Part shown: piece after piece, positions 552 to 22,708 of the stretch
Layout of the letters: the number at the start of each line of letters is the position of its first letter
Numbering within the stretch: the stretch's first letter is position 1
IMG/VR virus record: IMGVR_UViG_3300027749_000500
Location: 1-22,708 of that record
From: a virus
Reading direction: 5' to 3' (one strand)
Length of the DNA: 22,708 nt
Notes under the pieces: model-generated
What the model saw: the letters and a program-made list of their open reading frames with translations, nothing else
What the model was told of the DNA's origin: nothing
The model's database searches: none
Translations under genes and position numbers: made by a program

Positions 552-1790
552 ATGGCACTAGTACTCGCTGATAGGGTACAAGAGACTTCAACTACAAGCG
601 GCACCGGGGCATTTACACTAAACGGTGCTGTATCGGGTTACCAGTCTTTTGCTACGGGCATTGGCTCGGGTAATACCGTCTACTATGCCATCTACGATGC
701 AACTGAGTTTGCATGGGAAACAGGGCTTGGAACTTTTACTGCCCCTAGTACGCTGACCCGTACAACAGTATTTGCCAACTCGCTGGGAACCACTGCGTTT
801 ATTTCGTTTGCTGGCAACACCACCAGCGTGTTTGCTACATACCCCGGCAGCAAAGCCGTATCCACGGACACCTTGGCAAGCCCTCCTGCCATCGGTTCTA
901 CGGCAGCAAACACAGGCGCATTTACTACATTAAGCGCATCTTCTACGGTAAGCGGGACAGGATTTAGTACATATCTTGCAAGCCCACCGGCTATTGGTGG
1001 CACAGCGGCTGCTGCTGGTAGCTTCACAACATTAACAGCAACAACATCAGTAACAACGCCTATTGTCCAAAATAGTGCTGCTGCTGCTATTGCATTTAAA
1101 ACAAATTCAGCATCTAGCGCAGCCACTCAATTTAACGTATTCCACACAGCCACCGCTGTTAACTATGTACAGGTGACGGGTGGTGCTACTGGTGCTGCTT
1201 CAGTAATTTCAGCGCAAGGTTCTGATGCTGCTGTTCAATTAAATATTCTTGGAAAAAGCACAGGTTTAGTTCTTATTGGAAACAACAATAGAGCATCTGC
1301 TAGATTTGATACAACTGGTGGTGCAAATTATTTTTTAATAACAGGGACAGCAACTGGTGTTGCACCAATTTTGTCCACAGCAGGAACAGACGCCAACATT
1401 GACCTAACCCTAACGCCAAAGGGAACAGGCCGTGTAAACATTACAACAAGTATCAAGCCCAAGGTTAATAGTGCAGCAAACGTAACATCACCGCTTGCTT
1501 GGGATAGTACGTCATACGATGAATACGCCATTACTGCCTTGGCTAATGCATTGACAATTAACGCTGATGCAAACGCATCTCCTGCTGACGGTCAACGAAT
1601 GATGTTCAGGTTTAAGGACAACGGAACTGCCCGTGCATTGACTTGGACAACAGGTGCAACAAACGCATTCCGTGCTGTTGGCGTTACTTTGCCTACAACT
1701 ACTGTTGCATCTAAGCTGGTATATATCGGATGTATATACAACTCTGCTGATTCCCGTTGGGATGCAGTAGCTGTGTCGCAGGAGGCGTAA
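552..1790 (+). CDS. Phage tail fibre-like protein with repeated linker motif
   Basis: A 412-residue Ala/Thr/Ser-rich protein. The N-terminus (MALVLADRVQETSTTSGTGA) is a recognisable opening shared by many phage fibre-type proteins and is probably the virion-attachment end. Residues about 108-131 and 142-166 hold two copies of a LASPPAIGxTAAxxGxFTTL unit spaced about 34 residues apart, typical of trimeric fibre shafts. The last 95 or so residues form a separate beta-rich domain (SYDEYAITALANALTI ... LPTTT ... RWDAVAVS) that matches the C-terminus of the fibre encoded at 13505-14554. No clear Shine-Dalgarno sequence precedes the start, which lies two bases after the previous stop, so coupling is likely. 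Receptor binding is inferred. Confidence 0.82.
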   Translation: MALVLADRVQETSTTSGTGAFTLNGAVSGYQSFATGIGSGNTVYYAIYDATEFAWETGLGTFTAPSTLTRTTVFANSLGTTAFISFAGNTTSVFATYPGSKAVSTDTLASPPAIGSTAANTGAFTTLSASSTVSGTGFSTYLASPPAIGGTAAAAGSFTTLTATTSVTTPIVQNSAAAAIAFKTNSASSAATQFNVFHTATAVNYVQVTGGATGAASVISAQGSDAAVQLNILGKSTGLVLIGNNNRASARFDTTGGANYFLITGTATGVAPILSTAGTDANIDLTLTPKGTGRVNITTSIKPKVNSAANVTSPLAWDSTSYDEYAITALANALTINADANASPADGQRMMFRFKDNGTARALTWTTGATNAFRAVGVTLPTTTVASKLVYIGCIYNSADSRWDAVAVSQEA

Positions 1791-3717: not shown

Positions 3718-3759
3718 ATGGCACTTATCAAATCAATTGACACCGACTACGGAATTTAA
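3718..3759 (+). pseudogene. 13-codon truncated copy of the start of the gene at 4504
   Basis: An AAGGA ribosome site (3708-3712) precedes ATG and 13 sense codons reading MALIKSIDTDYGI, then a stop. The first 12 residues match the start of the intact gene at 4504 (MALLKPINTDYG) at 9 of 12 positions, and the DNA matches at 27 of 36 positions. The stop codon overlaps the start of the endonuclease gene as TAATG. The simplest reading is the beheaded 5' end of an allele of the 4504 gene, left behind when the endonuclease gene entered. It may now act only as a translated leader feeding ribosomes into the endonuclease. A deliberately short leader peptide that was never part of a longer gene is the alternative. 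Confidence 0.7.
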
Positions 3760-4526
3760 TGGAACAAGCTTACGTTTATATGTGGAAAGAGATTGCTACT
3801 GAAAAGTGGTATATCGGCTCACGTACACGCAAAGGCTGTCATCCTGATGATGGGTATATTTGCTCTAGTAAAACGGTCAAGCCTTTGATTGAAGCTAATC
3901 CTGATGGTTGGAAAAGAAAGATTCTGTTTGTTGGTGAACCAAAACGAGCATTAGAGATTGAATCTTTTACTCTTGTTGGCATGAGAGCCAAGCAATCCGA
4001 AATGAGTTACAACCTTCACAATCAAGATATGAAGTGGACTCGACTTGGTTGCAAAGATACACCAGAAGTATTATTGAAAAAAAGCAAAGCACGATCAGGT
4101 GATAAAAATCCATCATTCGGTAAACGTGGTGAACTTAACCCTAATTGGGGAAGAAAGTTGCCGCCAAAATCTGCTGAAGCAAGAGCAAAATTAAGTGCTG
4201 CTTTAAAAGGAAAACCAAGTTGGAACAAAGGCAAGAAAATGCCTCCAATGTCTGATGAACAACGTGCAAAATTAAGCGAAGCATTAAAAGGAAAGCCAAG
4301 TCATCGTAAAGGAAAAGCATTTCCAGCGGTTATTGAAGCAAACAAAAAACGTGCTGGAGAAAAAAGACCAGCACAAAGTCTTGCATTGCTTGGTAAAACT
4401 TGGACACACCCTAAAAAAACTTGTCCGCAATGCGGAACAATAGGCGCTGGCGGCAACATGCTGCGCTATCATTTTGAAAACTGTAAACACAAAGGAAACG
4501 AAAATGGCATTACTCAAGCCCATTAA
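3759..4526 (+). CDS. GIY-YIG homing endonuclease with NUMOD3 repeats and C-terminal zinc finger
   Basis: A 255-residue selfish-element nuclease. The N-terminal 90 residues fit the GIY-YIG fold: YVY (5-7), KWYIGS (16-21), Arg22/Arg24 and a candidate metal-binding Glu at 66 or 68 in ALEIES. Residues about 113-188 contain NUMOD3-type DNA-binding repeats, with two close copies of AKLSxALKGKPSxxKGK (143-160 and 170-186). The C-terminus has a probable C2HC zinc finger (Cys222, Cys225, His238, Cys242). This order is typical of phage homing endonucleases, which cut an allele lacking the element and spread by recombination. The start overlaps the stop of the 13-codon stub, and the 3' end overlaps the next gene by 23 bases. 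All expected domains look intact, so it is probably active. Confidence 0.92.
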   Translation: MEQAYVYMWKEIATEKWYIGSRTRKGCHPDDGYICSSKTVKPLIEANPDGWKRKILFVGEPKRALEIESFTLVGMRAKQSEMSYNLHNQDMKWTRLGCKDTPEVLLKKSKARSGDKNPSFGKRGELNPNWGRKLPPKSAEARAKLSAALKGKPSWNKGKKMPPMSDEQRAKLSEALKGKPSHRKGKAFPAVIEANKKRAGEKRPAQSLALLGKTWTHPKKTCPQCGTIGAGGNMLRYHFENCKHKGNENGITQAH

Positions 4527-20230: not shown

Positions 20231-21208
20231 ATGAAAGCTGTTATTTCAGATCAGGAATTTATTGAGTTGTGGAACACACACCAGTCTCCCACAAAGATCG
20301 CAAAGATTACTGGCATCTCTGAGAGAGCCGTTTACGCAAAACGAAATTCCATCCAAGTCTCGCAAAACGTAAAGCTAGAAACAAATCGACCCGTACAAGC
20401 CCTTGATCAGCCAAGGTACACCTACTCTCCTGTGCGGCCAAAGACTGAACTTGGGATTGAAAATGGAACCGTTATTGTTTTTTCTGACGCTCATTTCTGG
20501 CCTGGGATACGGACTACTGCTTTTCAAGGTTTACTGTGGGCGATTGAAAAGCTACAACCAAAAGCAGTTATTTGCAATGGCGATGCTTTTGACGGTGCAT
20601 CTATCTCTCGCCATCCACCTCTGGGCTGGACTAGAACACCGAGTGTGATTGACGAACTCAAAGCCTGCAAGGAAATGTTAGGTGAAGTTGTGGTGGCTGC
20701 AAAAGAATCACGCCACAATGTTGGTCTCGTGTACACAATGGGCAATCATGACGCTAGGTTTGAAATGCGTCTAGCAGCCAATGCGCCGCAATACGTACAA
20801 ACACCAGGATTCAAGTTAGAAGACCACTTCCCCGAGTGGCAATTCTGTATGTCGGTCTGGGTGACAGAAGATGTAATTGTTAAACACCGATACAAAGGCG
20901 GCATCCATGCTACCCACAACAATACCGTAGGGGCTGGTAAAAGCATCGTAACGGGTCATTTGCACAGCTTGAAGGTTACGCCTTATGCAGACTACAACGG
21001 CAACCGTTTTGGCGTGGATACGGGCACTCTTGCAGAGATTAACGGCCCACAGTTTGACTACGCTGAAGAAAACCCACAGAACCATCGATCTGGCTTTGCC
21101 GTACTAACATTCAAAGATGGAAAACTATTGTGGCCCGAATTGGTACACAAATGGAGCGAGGGTCAAGTGGAATTTAGGGGTGAAGTGATTGATGTAAGTG
21201 GCCTTTAA
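20231..21208 (+). CDS. Metallophosphoesterase with N-terminal helix-turn-helix
   Basis: A 325-residue protein. Residues about 8-42 (FIELWNTHQSPTKIAKITGI, then SERAVYAKRNSIQ) look like a helix-turn-helix. From about residue 80 comes a calcineurin-like phosphoesterase with the full metal-binding set: D86 and H88 (SDAHF), D118 (NGDAFD), N172 and H173 (GNHDAR), H226 or H229, and H243/H245 (GHLH). The family hydrolyses phosphodiesters or phosphomonoesters with two metal ions, and the substrate here is unknown. The HTH suggests action on DNA, for example nuclease or end-processing. It has a clear AAAGGAC ribosome site and is the last plus-strand gene before a terminator. A role in replication, recombination or host nucleic-acid degradation is speculative. 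Confidence 0.88.
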   Translation: MKAVISDQEFIELWNTHQSPTKIAKITGISERAVYAKRNSIQVSQNVKLETNRPVQALDQPRYTYSPVRPKTELGIENGTVIVFSDAHFWPGIRTTAFQGLLWAIEKLQPKAVICNGDAFDGASISRHPPLGWTRTPSVIDELKACKEMLGEVVVAAKESRHNVGLVYTMGNHDARFEMRLAANAPQYVQTPGFKLEDHFPEWQFCMSVWVTEDVIVKHRYKGGIHATHNNTVGAGKSIVTGHLHSLKVTPYADYNGNRFGVDTGTLAEINGPQFDYAEENPQNHRSGFAVLTFKDGKLLWPELVHKWSEGQVEFRGEVIDVSGL

Positions 21209-21255
21209 AGAACAAAAAGTCCGATATATGTAATATATATCGGACATTTGTTCTT
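21208..21255. terminator. Bidirectional intrinsic terminator between convergent genes
   Basis: A long near-perfect inverted repeat: AAGAACAAA (21208-21216) pairs with TTTGTTCTT (21247-21255), and GTCCGATATAT (21219-21229) with ATATATCGGAC (21235-21245), with only a small AA/A bulge between and a 5-base loop. Read leftward, the inner stem is followed by TTTTT, a good U-tract. Read rightward, ATTTGTTCTT is weaker. It separates the phosphoesterase from the leftward acidic gene. Confidence 0.85.
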
Positions 21256-21263
21256 ATAGAGCT

Positions 21264-21590
21264 TTATTCTTGCTCAACTTCAACGCCTTCCAAGTCTTCC
21301 ACCAGCAACCATTCGCCGGTTTCAATGTTCAGCCAATACCAAGCCTCGTGCTCTTCGTCGTACCAGCAGTAGCATTCTGCGTCTTCGTCATAGATATACT
21401 CTTCTCCATCGTCAAAGTATTGAGCGATCTCTTCTGGAATGTCAAATTCGTCATCAGCAAAGTCTTCGTCTTCATCAACAACTTCCAGGCTTCCCAACAT
21501 CTTTGCCATTTCAGCAAGTTCAAAAATTGACTCTGTAGCAAACTCAAAATAGCCAGACTTGTTAAAGTCAACCGTAACAGTAAACATCAT
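21264..21590 (-). CDS. Extremely acidic small protein, unknown function
   Basis: About 108 residues with 37 Asp/Glu and only 2 Lys and no Arg. The N-terminal part (MMFTVTVDFNKSGYFEFATE, then SIFELAEMAKMLG) looks like a small alpha/beta fold. A DEDEDFADDEFD acidic patch follows, then an aromatic-acidic segment (YIYDEDAECYCWYDEEHEAW, then YWLNIETGEWLLVEDLE) with two strand-like Tyr/Trp repeats. A TTG at 21602 is in frame, but the GGAG ribosome site (21600-21597 on the minus strand) fits the ATG at 21590 or 21587. It is transcribed against the late genes. The charge suggests a DNA mimic or a binder of a basic protein, but that is only a guess. Confidence 0.78.
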   Translation of the reverse strand: MMFTVTVDFNKSGYFEFATESIFELAEMAKMLGSLEVVDEDEDFADDEFDIPEEIAQYFDDGEEYIYDEDAECYCWYDEEHEAWYWLNIETGEWLLVEDLEGVEVEQE

Positions 21591-21644
21591 AATATTCTCC
21601 AAAAATTAGCACGGCGAAATGCCGCAAAAACATCTTACACCACC

Positions 21645-22154
21645 ATGATTTCAAATTTTAAAACTGCACTTTCTTACGTTTTAGCCTCGGAAGGAAATTT
21701 TGTAAACGACCCCAAAGACCCTGGCGGCATGACCAATTTAGGATGCACTAAAGCGACTTGGGAAGAGTACGTAGGCCATCCAGTGTCAGAGGCGGATATG
21801 CGTGCTCTGACACCCGCTATGGTGGCTCCTTTGTACAAGCGCAAGTATTGGGACAAAGTATCTGGCGACCTGCTTCCGTCAGGTCTGGACTACGCTGTGT
21901 TTGATGCTGCCATCAATAGTGGCCCTGGAAGGGCTGCAAAGTGGCTACAGGAGCTTGTAGGAGTACGGCAGGATGGTTCTATTGGCCCAAAGACTTTGGC
22001 CGCTGTACAGGCTTTTAGCCCTTTTGAGGTGATTGCACAGTACAACGAAAAAAGGCTTCAATTTCTTGAAAGCCTTCCTACCTACTTTACTTTTGGCAGA
22101 GGTTGGTTTAATAGGGTTTCTTCGGTTCAATCACTTGCTAGTCAGCTTGCGTAA
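21645..22154 (+). CDS. Endolysin, GH108-type muramidase with C-terminal peptidoglycan-binding domain
   Basis: A 169-residue lysis enzyme. ASEGNFVNDPKDPGGMTNLG (14-33) is the GH108 catalytic signature, with Glu16 as the predicted catalytic acid. YKRKYWDKVSGDLLPSGLDY and AVFDAAINSGPGRAAKWLQE follow as in family members. Residues about 100-165 (GVRQDGSIGPKTLAAVQAF, FTFGRGWFNRV) fit the PG_binding_3 domain. It cleaves the glycan backbone of peptidoglycan once the holin acts. There is no signal peptide, so it is holin-dependent. No Shine-Dalgarno sequence is seen before the ATG, which is unusual here. The 3' end overlaps the leftward gene at 22131 by 24 bases. Confidence 0.93.
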   Translation: MISNFKTALSYVLASEGNFVNDPKDPGGMTNLGCTKATWEEYVGHPVSEADMRALTPAMVAPLYKRKYWDKVSGDLLPSGLDYAVFDAAINSGPGRAAKWLQELVGVRQDGSIGPKTLAAVQAFSPFEVIAQYNEKRLQFLESLPTYFTFGRGWFNRVSSVQSLASQLA

Positions 22155-22292
22155 CTCCTTCATAGCGTCTTTAAGGTCTTGACGGTATTGCTCAATAGCT
22201 TCTTGCTGTTCTTGCATACGAATGTAAGAGTCCCGTGCAAAGTTAGCTAAATTTTCGTTGCTCCAAGCGGCAAAGTTTGGTAGGTCATTCAT
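22131..22292 (-). CDS. Small coiled-coil protein, unknown function
   Basis: A 53-residue helical protein (MNDLPNFAAWSNENLANFAR, then MQEQQEAIEQYRQDLKDAMK). The open frame extends upstream to 22379, but the ATG at 22292 is preferred. It overlaps the stop of the upstream leftward gene (ATGAATGA arrangement), whereas the longer form would lie largely inside that gene. Translation is probably coupled. The 3' end overlaps the endolysin end. I do not recognise the family. The heptad-like pattern suggests a dimer. Confidence 0.6.
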   Translation of the reverse strand: MNDLPNFAAWSNENLANFARDSYIRMQEQQEAIEQYRQDLKDAMKELRKLTSK

Positions 22293-22521
22293 TTGGTTTA
22301 GGGCAGTTAGCTGGCGGGGTAACAACGCACCATACGGCGCTATGTTTTTTTTGATATGAGGCGGGTGTCCATCTGTCAATGTAAGCGTCTGGCATACACT
22401 TCAGGGAGTTAATAATTGCGCGAGGGTCTGAGTCAATGCGTACCGCTATTTCGGTCGCCGTAAGTCCATCCTCAACCCCGCGCAGTAAAGCGCGTATTCG
22501 TAGCTGGTTAGACTTTCTCAC
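22285..22521 (-). CDS. Small winged-helix/HTH-like protein
   Basis: A 78-residue protein with a GTG start, preceded by AAGGA about six bases upstream. NQLRIRALLRGVEDGLTATE and IAVRIDSDPRAIINSLKCMP have the pattern of a helix-turn-helix (an 'LTATEIAVRIDSDPRAIINSL' type helix pair). DAYIDRWTPASYQKKHSAVW, followed by CVVTPPANCPKPNE, resembles the wing and tail of small phage DNA-binding proteins that end CPxPN. It may be a regulator of the leftward genes, though only the fold is supported. It overlaps the upstream gene by 14 bases and the downstream one by 8 bases. Confidence 0.7.
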   Translation of the reverse strand: MRKSNQLRIRALLRGVEDGLTATEIAVRIDSDPRAIINSLKCMPDAYIDRWTPASYQKKHSAVWCVVTPPANCPKPNE

Positions 22522-22708
22522 TTAATTCCTTTTCTTTGTTTCTTTTTGGCAATGGCAACCAGCCAAGGCACCAGTCACCCCAAAAGCCCACGGTGCAAAT
22601 ACCACCCTTAGATAATAAAAGCACTTTAGTATCTATAGGTGCTAACGCATCTCCGGCGTGGGGGTACAAGAACTCCTTTCCGTCAGCAAAGTAGCGTTGA
22701 TCGGTCAT
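22508..22708 (-). CDS. Small phage protein at window edge, unknown function
   Basis: A 66-residue product whose ATG is the last three bases of the window, so an earlier start outside cannot be excluded. It begins MTDQRYFADGKEFLYPHAGD and includes DTKVLLLSKGGICTVGFWGD and a Trp-rich WCLGWLPLPKR segment. This pattern resembles small phage proteins of the DUF551-like type (a 'G.W..W....W.PLP' ending), although that assignment is tentative. The basic tail KRNKEKELSEKV overlaps the next gene and contains its ribosome site. Confidence 0.65.
   Translation of the reverse strand: MTDQRYFADGKEFLYPHAGDALAPIDTKVLLLSKGGICTVGFWGDWCLGWLPLPKRNKEKELSEKV

Follow-up and report, generated by a model that had tools for sequence, protein, structure and literature searches.

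Free-standing nuclease genes are common in phages, the Im proteins of HNH colicins are acidic, and the repeat of the OCRE domain is an octamer; the small phage gene described here invites comparison with each of these, and with the T7 protein Ocr. In the available part of its account (PMC4872106) Ocr has 116 residues, 34 of them acidic and six basic, and the protein encoded in our window (the whole stretch of 22,708 nucleotides analysed here, from IMG/VR virus record IMGVR_UViG_3300027749_000500) is similar in size and charge, with 108, 37 and two, respectively. It differs from Ocr in lacking a sequence or fold match, in belonging to a family predicted to be beta-rich with aromatic repeats, and in having a nuclease-type neighbour in the phage itself. 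The likeness to HNH-colicin Im proteins is one of general analogy, a small inhibitor being encoded together with an HNH nuclease (PMC4548480, in the portion accessible). Im7 is a four-helix protein, according to the accessible text of PMC3314952, whereas the present family is predicted to be beta-rich, swaps between unrelated enzyme folds and faces its partner tail-to-tail; the AlphaFold model of the acidic protein, of moderate confidence, has strands and one helix rather than the four-helix Im fold. Homing endonuclease genes near capsid genes are also known (PMC10448857, as far as its text was available), and some of our loci resemble these free-standing phage elements in that an HNH gene stands beside the capsid gene in some phages and is missing from close relatives; they differ in that the available part of that paper mentions no acidic companion, and in the existence of a branch linked to a phosphoesterase and devoid of HNH. 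Finally, the OCRE domain (Pfam PF17780) shares tandem aromatic-acidic beta repeats with our family, in which the repeat period is instead ten; two of 51 family members match PF17780, with a best E of 0.4, which is not significant. Neither the family nor its enzyme pairing is described in the literature found by the searches made, a scope from which subscription papers were mostly absent.

The features of the locus are as follows.

20231-21208, plus strand: partner gene, termed PE, for a 325-residue protein with a helix-turn-helix (HTH) and a calcineurin-like metallophosphoesterase (phrog_221, E 7.5e-27; Pfam Metallophos, E 9.5e-6)
21208-21262, either strand: hairpin at the junction of the convergent genes, terminator-like in both directions (stem 21219-21245), from folding
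21264-21590, minus strand, stop codon included: gene for the ultra-acidic protein of 108 residues (open reading frame, Shine-Dalgarno sequence, 59 related contigs in a first scan)
21294-21404, minus strand: acidic-aromatic decapeptide repeats, residues 63-99, EEYxYDEDxxCYCWYDEEHEAWYWLNxETGEWLLVED (invariant residues in the alignment, meander predicted by AlphaFold)
21492-21590, minus strand: predicted N-terminal beta-beta-alpha part, residues 1-33, MxFTVxVD...FEFxTESI (two alignments and a low-confidence AlphaFold model)
21591-21640, minus strand: 5' leader of the acidic gene, with a GC hairpin (about 21610-21626), a U-run and then GGAG (21597-21600); the same leader type occurs in HNH-linked relatives
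21645-22154, plus strand: GH108 endolysin, divergent neighbour to the right of the acidic gene (Pfam GH108, E 1.4e-25; phrog_315)
22131-22708, minus strand: leftward small genes, which continue directly into the acidic gene in some relatives (L003, for example)

The acidic protein contains 13 Asp and 24 Glu against two Lys and no Arg, together with 19 Tyr, Trp or Phe, and its computed charge is about -35 at pH 7. No other product among the 88 ORFs of at least 60 residues in the window is as acidic; the net acidic excess per residue is 0.32, versus 0.05 for the runner-up. The first ATG, at 21590, is preceded by TTTTTGGAGAATATT, with the Shine-Dalgarno sequence GGAG six bases 5' of it. An initial annotation, made from the sequence of the window, had counted 37 acidic against two basic residues in about 108, which is exact by composition, and had noted a Tyr/Trp/Asp/Glu repeat near the C-terminus, which is real: it has a period of ten and is conserved in an alignment of 51 rows, from which its units were read as Y67-D68, Y77-D78, L87-N88 and V97-E98. 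Residues Y65, W76, Y77, D78, E79, W84, Y85, L87, W94 and L96 are invariant in these rows, the conserved core is EEYxYDEDxxCYCWYDEE[HY]xAWYWL[ND]xETGEWLLVED, and invariant alignment columns number 12, including the start Met. AlphaFold places strands at residues 3-9 and 13-19 and a helix at 22-33, with low confidence (pLDDT about 60), and predicts a four-stranded meander for the C-terminal repeats (pLDDT about 80); overall confidence is modest, at pLDDT 64 for a first model and 66 for a second, built from 112 rows. Because frame, motif and ribosome-binding site are conserved in the 59 contigs of the first scan, the ORF is more than a chance reading: a genuine gene, it has many relatives among contigs of uncultivated phages.

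That first scan of viral contigs, with the window protein as query, yielded 59 loci, and nine of their proteins, identical to others in the set, were left out of further comparison; when the 51-row alignment served as query instead, 67 loci were obtained, on contigs partly shared with the first scan. Among bacterial and archaeal genome contigs a single scan found no relative, and a tblastn search of named phages gave no match for the acidic protein types tried, although the low-complexity filter may hide matches. The window protein has no Pfam match up to E 10 and no fitting NCBIfam or PADLOC family. A PHROG profile without an assigned function, phrog_21303, is matched by 26 of 51 family members at E up to 1 (best 9.6e-5, with low-complexity bias possible), the window protein itself having no match to it. 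With the pLDDT 64 model, a Foldseek search of the PDB returned nothing at E 0.001; the best hit of a VIA fold search (Z 3.0 over 43 residues) was not above background, and a profile search of PDB sequences found no match. The second model was compared with the viral structure library only, where the best matches were three uncharacterized proteins of uncultured Caudovirales phage, A0A6J7WGB1, A0A6J5NEZ6 and A0A6J7WIK2; all three are probably family members, and the first is the only significant one (E 3.6e-6, 49% identity). Some relatives begin with a different, MYK-type N-terminus. A profile comparison of the window-type with the MYK-type alignment was not significant; the two N-termini may nonetheless be related, as judged from intermediates, from MEFTL-type members and from a joint alignment of 111 of the 153 partnered proteins with the window protein. 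Two such intermediates (L191 and L192) combine a MYK-type N-terminus with the aromatic repeats and the same type of C-terminal tail as L084. A small antisense gene (MK[IV]T[ILM]E[FY][DE]...) is often the next gene beside MYK-type acidic genes, some 250-450 bp past PE (L077, L087, L098 and others), and a second, unrelated acidic family (M[TN]D...EVDLGDLGVCD...) lies away from PE on the minus strand of three contigs (L078, 8749-8994; L087, 8312-8557; L105, 8476-8721).

The distinctive property of the family is its neighbourhood, which takes three forms: tail-to-tail with PE, as in the window, where the two genes stand stop against stop with PE to the left; co-directional and directly downstream of PE; and directly behind a major capsid gene, tail-to-tail with a small gene for an HNH endonuclease. 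An N-terminal helix-turn-helix-like segment is read from the sequence of the window PE, and no residue of the PE metal-site motif varies in any of 103 homologues. The HNH assignment is based on the pattern CxxC...DFHH...CxNCHRxxH, invariant or nearly so in 22 rows; Pfam HNH matches stay below threshold, the gathering score not being reached, and the proteins match 207 phage records, with many among the matches listed annotated as HNH endonuclease. The window partner is the metallophosphoesterase and not HNH, the HNH-type partner being present in the HNH-linked branch. PE and HNH were never found together in the loci checked, HNH occurring in none of the PE loci, and in all 21 records with family members and no PE in view there was no phosphoesterase match, in a search made without a positive control. 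The GH108 endolysin is missing from the place beside the acidic gene in some relatives. Elsewhere in the window, beside fibre-like genes, a gene at 3759-4526 (plus strand) encodes a 255-residue protein that carries NUMOD3 motifs (E 1.3e-13), which occur in homing-type nucleases; no very acidic ORF of the window adjoins it.

The tightness of this adjacency was assessed in loci selected by four different genes, in sets that share contigs and are not independent samples. Selection by the acidic gene gave 86 distinct family members, of which 54 adjoin PE (30 co-directional, 24 tail-to-tail) and 30 stand tail-to-tail with HNH; the remaining two stop 75 and 1 bp short of the edge of their contigs. 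Adjacency to a nuclease-type gene, a feature of immunity proteins, is therefore found in 84 of 86, with the other two cut by a contig end, and the acidic gene lies beside the gene for a DNA- or phosphate-cutting enzyme in every assessable case. Among 80 loci selected by PE, eight were too short to assess; a very acidic ORF immediately follows PE in 66 of the other 72 (29 co-directional, 37 antisense), or in 61 of 72 under a stricter rule, and six of the 72 have no acidic gene. No acidic neighbour is present in any of four named records that contain the nearest relatives of PE (37-61% identity). Selection by HNH (80 loci, two too short) found the acidic gene in 38 of 78, always antisense and pointing towards HNH. 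Of 39 very acidic ORFs in this set, 38 lie there. The other 40 assessable loci lack the acidic gene, and in about 22 of them, read by eye, HNH faces the capsid gene directly. The PE and HNH sets, each chosen by enzyme only, bear out the link. Since HNH lineages without an acidic gene exist, the enzyme does not always need the companion. When loci were pooled, 153 of 160 distinct small acidic proteins had a PE or HNH partner, the seven exceptions being one family member at a contig end (L016) and six proteins unlike the family. Adjacency to a nuclease-type gene is thus shown to be near-obligate, and is mostly tail-to-tail. The notion of the acidic protein as a cognate partner of PE alone was rejected once the 21 records without PE in view had shown no phosphoesterase match and the HNH gene had turned up beside the acidic one.

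In the HNH branch, the acidic gene lies directly behind, and co-directional with, a major capsid gene (phrog_371, E 2e-21), a placement that would suit a late accessory of virion morphogenesis or packaging, associated with the capsid and standing behind capsid or phosphoesterase genes by chance. Selection by the capsid gene (80 loci, 14 too short) argues otherwise: of the 66 loci counted, 55 have neither gene, seven have both, three have HNH alone and one has the acidic gene alone, on a contig that ends 238 bp after the capsid gene, so that in this branch the cassette is present or absent at one site between relatives. In addition, all four named capsid relatives examined have the next gene of the capsid operon at that place, the acidic sequence hardly tracks the capsid sequence (below), and in the window clade the acidic gene is on the opposite strand, beside lysis genes; we therefore regard a virion accessory as improbable. 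In L227, a 23-residue peptide is encoded at about 1700-1780 (plus strand) between the capsid gene and an HNH gene that has no acidic companion; we take it to resemble PqqA, the precursor of pyrroloquinoline quinone.

The initial annotation had the acidic gene transcribed against the late genes, and from its orientation proposed expression at a different time. The first statement holds in the window and fails across the family, 55 of the 153 partnered distinct members being co-directional with and directly downstream of PE, and orientation has changed at least twice on the PE tree. Since orientation flips, and since the gene is co-directional behind capsid in the HNH branch, arguments from antisense placement or different timing do not generalise, and the second proposal is weak.

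Some pairs of acidic proteins share 80-88% identity over 60-73 residues although one stands beside PE and the other beside HNH (L091 and L347, for example), which demonstrates an exchange of partners between two unrelated enzyme folds and, at this level of identity, argues against a tight lock-and-key inhibitor. At the same time, pairwise identities from 45 loci that contain all three genes (acidic, HNH and capsid) give a rho of 0.55 for acidic with HNH, 0.12 for acidic with capsid and 0.00 for HNH with capsid; the partial correlation between acidic protein and HNH is 0.55, a value as high being reached in none of 300 permutations, and shows that the two sequences co-vary independently of the adjacent capsid gene. 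The presence of the acidic gene likewise follows HNH lineage, requiring five changes versus 27.6 for shuffled labels on a tree of 91 distinct HNHs (57 with the acidic gene, 34 without) that has few columns and several long branches. In one contig (L005, 976-4397), two diverged acidic-PE cassettes flank a single endolysin, the acidic copies being 69% and the PE copies 75% identical; this represents either a partial duplication or a second acquisition. As to charge, the acidic protein has a median of -35 and the HNH proteins paired with it one of +14, with no clear excess over the +12 of unpaired HNH proteins (p 0.11). The window PE has a net charge of -2 (family median +1); as it is not basic, charge attraction to the acidic protein is not evident for it.

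An explanation close behind the one that we prefer is that the gene is anti-defence cargo, an Ocr-like mimic directed at host defence or host DNA-binding enzymes, carried where homing-type nucleases drive the exchange and amplification of neighbouring genes. The composition of the protein, close to that of Ocr in the available account, fits this, as do the partner exchange, the duplicated cassette of L005 and the slot between capsid and HNH in L227, filled by a different small gene (the PqqA-like peptide). It also fits published roles of phage nucleases, whose genes lie at the borders of exchange between phage genomes (PMC10448857, in the part available) and of which one, SegB, amplifies anti-defence loci (PMC13096335, likewise in part). 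On the other hand, the co-variation of acidic protein with HNH, and its presence by HNH lineage, are tighter than freely exchanged cargo would give, no other gene class recurs in the slot among the loci read, and PE is not known as a homing enzyme, such that cargo seems to us possible but rather unlikely. The initial annotation had favoured a DNA mimic or an inhibitor of host defences. Its likeness to Ocr stands as regards composition, and fold searches with the pLDDT 64 model gave no match to a mimic; nothing points to a host-defence target, PADLOC being without a match. With neither neighbourhood nor PADLOC offering such a target, the host-defence mimic was demoted from main reading to rival; judging by the adjacent genes, the linked partner is rather a nuclease-type enzyme that the phage itself encodes.

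The junction and leader of the gene suggest a further possibility, that the acidic gene and its hairpin-U-run leader serve chiefly to insulate or regulate converging transcription units, the protein being secondary. The hairpin at the convergent junction is strong in both directions, at -23.3 kcal/mol on the plus strand (z -8.6) and -23.1 on the minus strand (z -9.0), and, as it folds on both, could serve as terminator for PE and the acidic gene alike; the insulation by a strong terminator claimed at the outset is borne out to the extent that about -23 kcal/mol on either strand is terminator-like. A leader hairpin with a U-run ending in the Shine-Dalgarno sequence precedes 45 of 55 HNH-linked and 22 of 43 tail-to-tail PE-linked members, as compared with 88 of 991 other leaders and four of 153 shuffled ones, and the leader type TTGCAGC-GCTGCAA-TTTTTGGAG is seen with both PE and HNH partners. 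Such a leader may terminate transcription arriving from upstream or control how the acidic gene is translated. Covariation in it is weak (the score was reached by 15 of 500 shuffles, with two pairs showing two-sided change) and was computed on 39 rows picked from 53 that matched a hairpin pattern; because these rows were pre-selected, conservation of the leader is claimed from the unselected counts only. Against expression as the main role, the protein motif is strongly conserved, and the leader occurs in none of the 55 members co-directional with PE, in which the protein is kept nonetheless; a role of this kind is very improbable.

Taken together, these observations suggest that the acidic family may hold phage nucleases in check, or accompany them, instead of just blocking host defence. 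What stays constant is the nuclease-type neighbour, and for this reason we prefer, tentatively, to view the protein as an interchangeable, DNA-mimic-like restraint on the neighbouring nuclease: a companion genetically tied to an HTH-metallophosphoesterase or to a free-standing HNH endonuclease, which, as a DNA-like polyanion, would bind the nucleic-acid-binding face of the enzyme and limit its activity on the phage's own DNA, the pair behaving somewhat like a nuclease and its antidote. That one type of companion should serve two folds fits poorly with specific inhibition, unless the companion acts as a generic DNA-like polyanion; being generic, such a polyanion could serve either enzyme. A broader version, in which mobile nucleases of both the HNH and HTH-metallophosphoesterase kinds recruit the same DNA-like brake as an exchangeable general antidote, and in which nuclease and brake pass from phage to phage as a tail-to-tail cassette equipped with a leader hairpin, we consider doubtful. 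Should the gene prove to be anti-defence cargo instead, it would mark a recurrent cargo site beside nuclease genes. As a restraint, this recurrent, partner-changing acidic companion offers a testable candidate for how phages tolerate free-standing nucleases, and the family provides a sequence marker for nuclease-companion cassettes in uncultivated phages.
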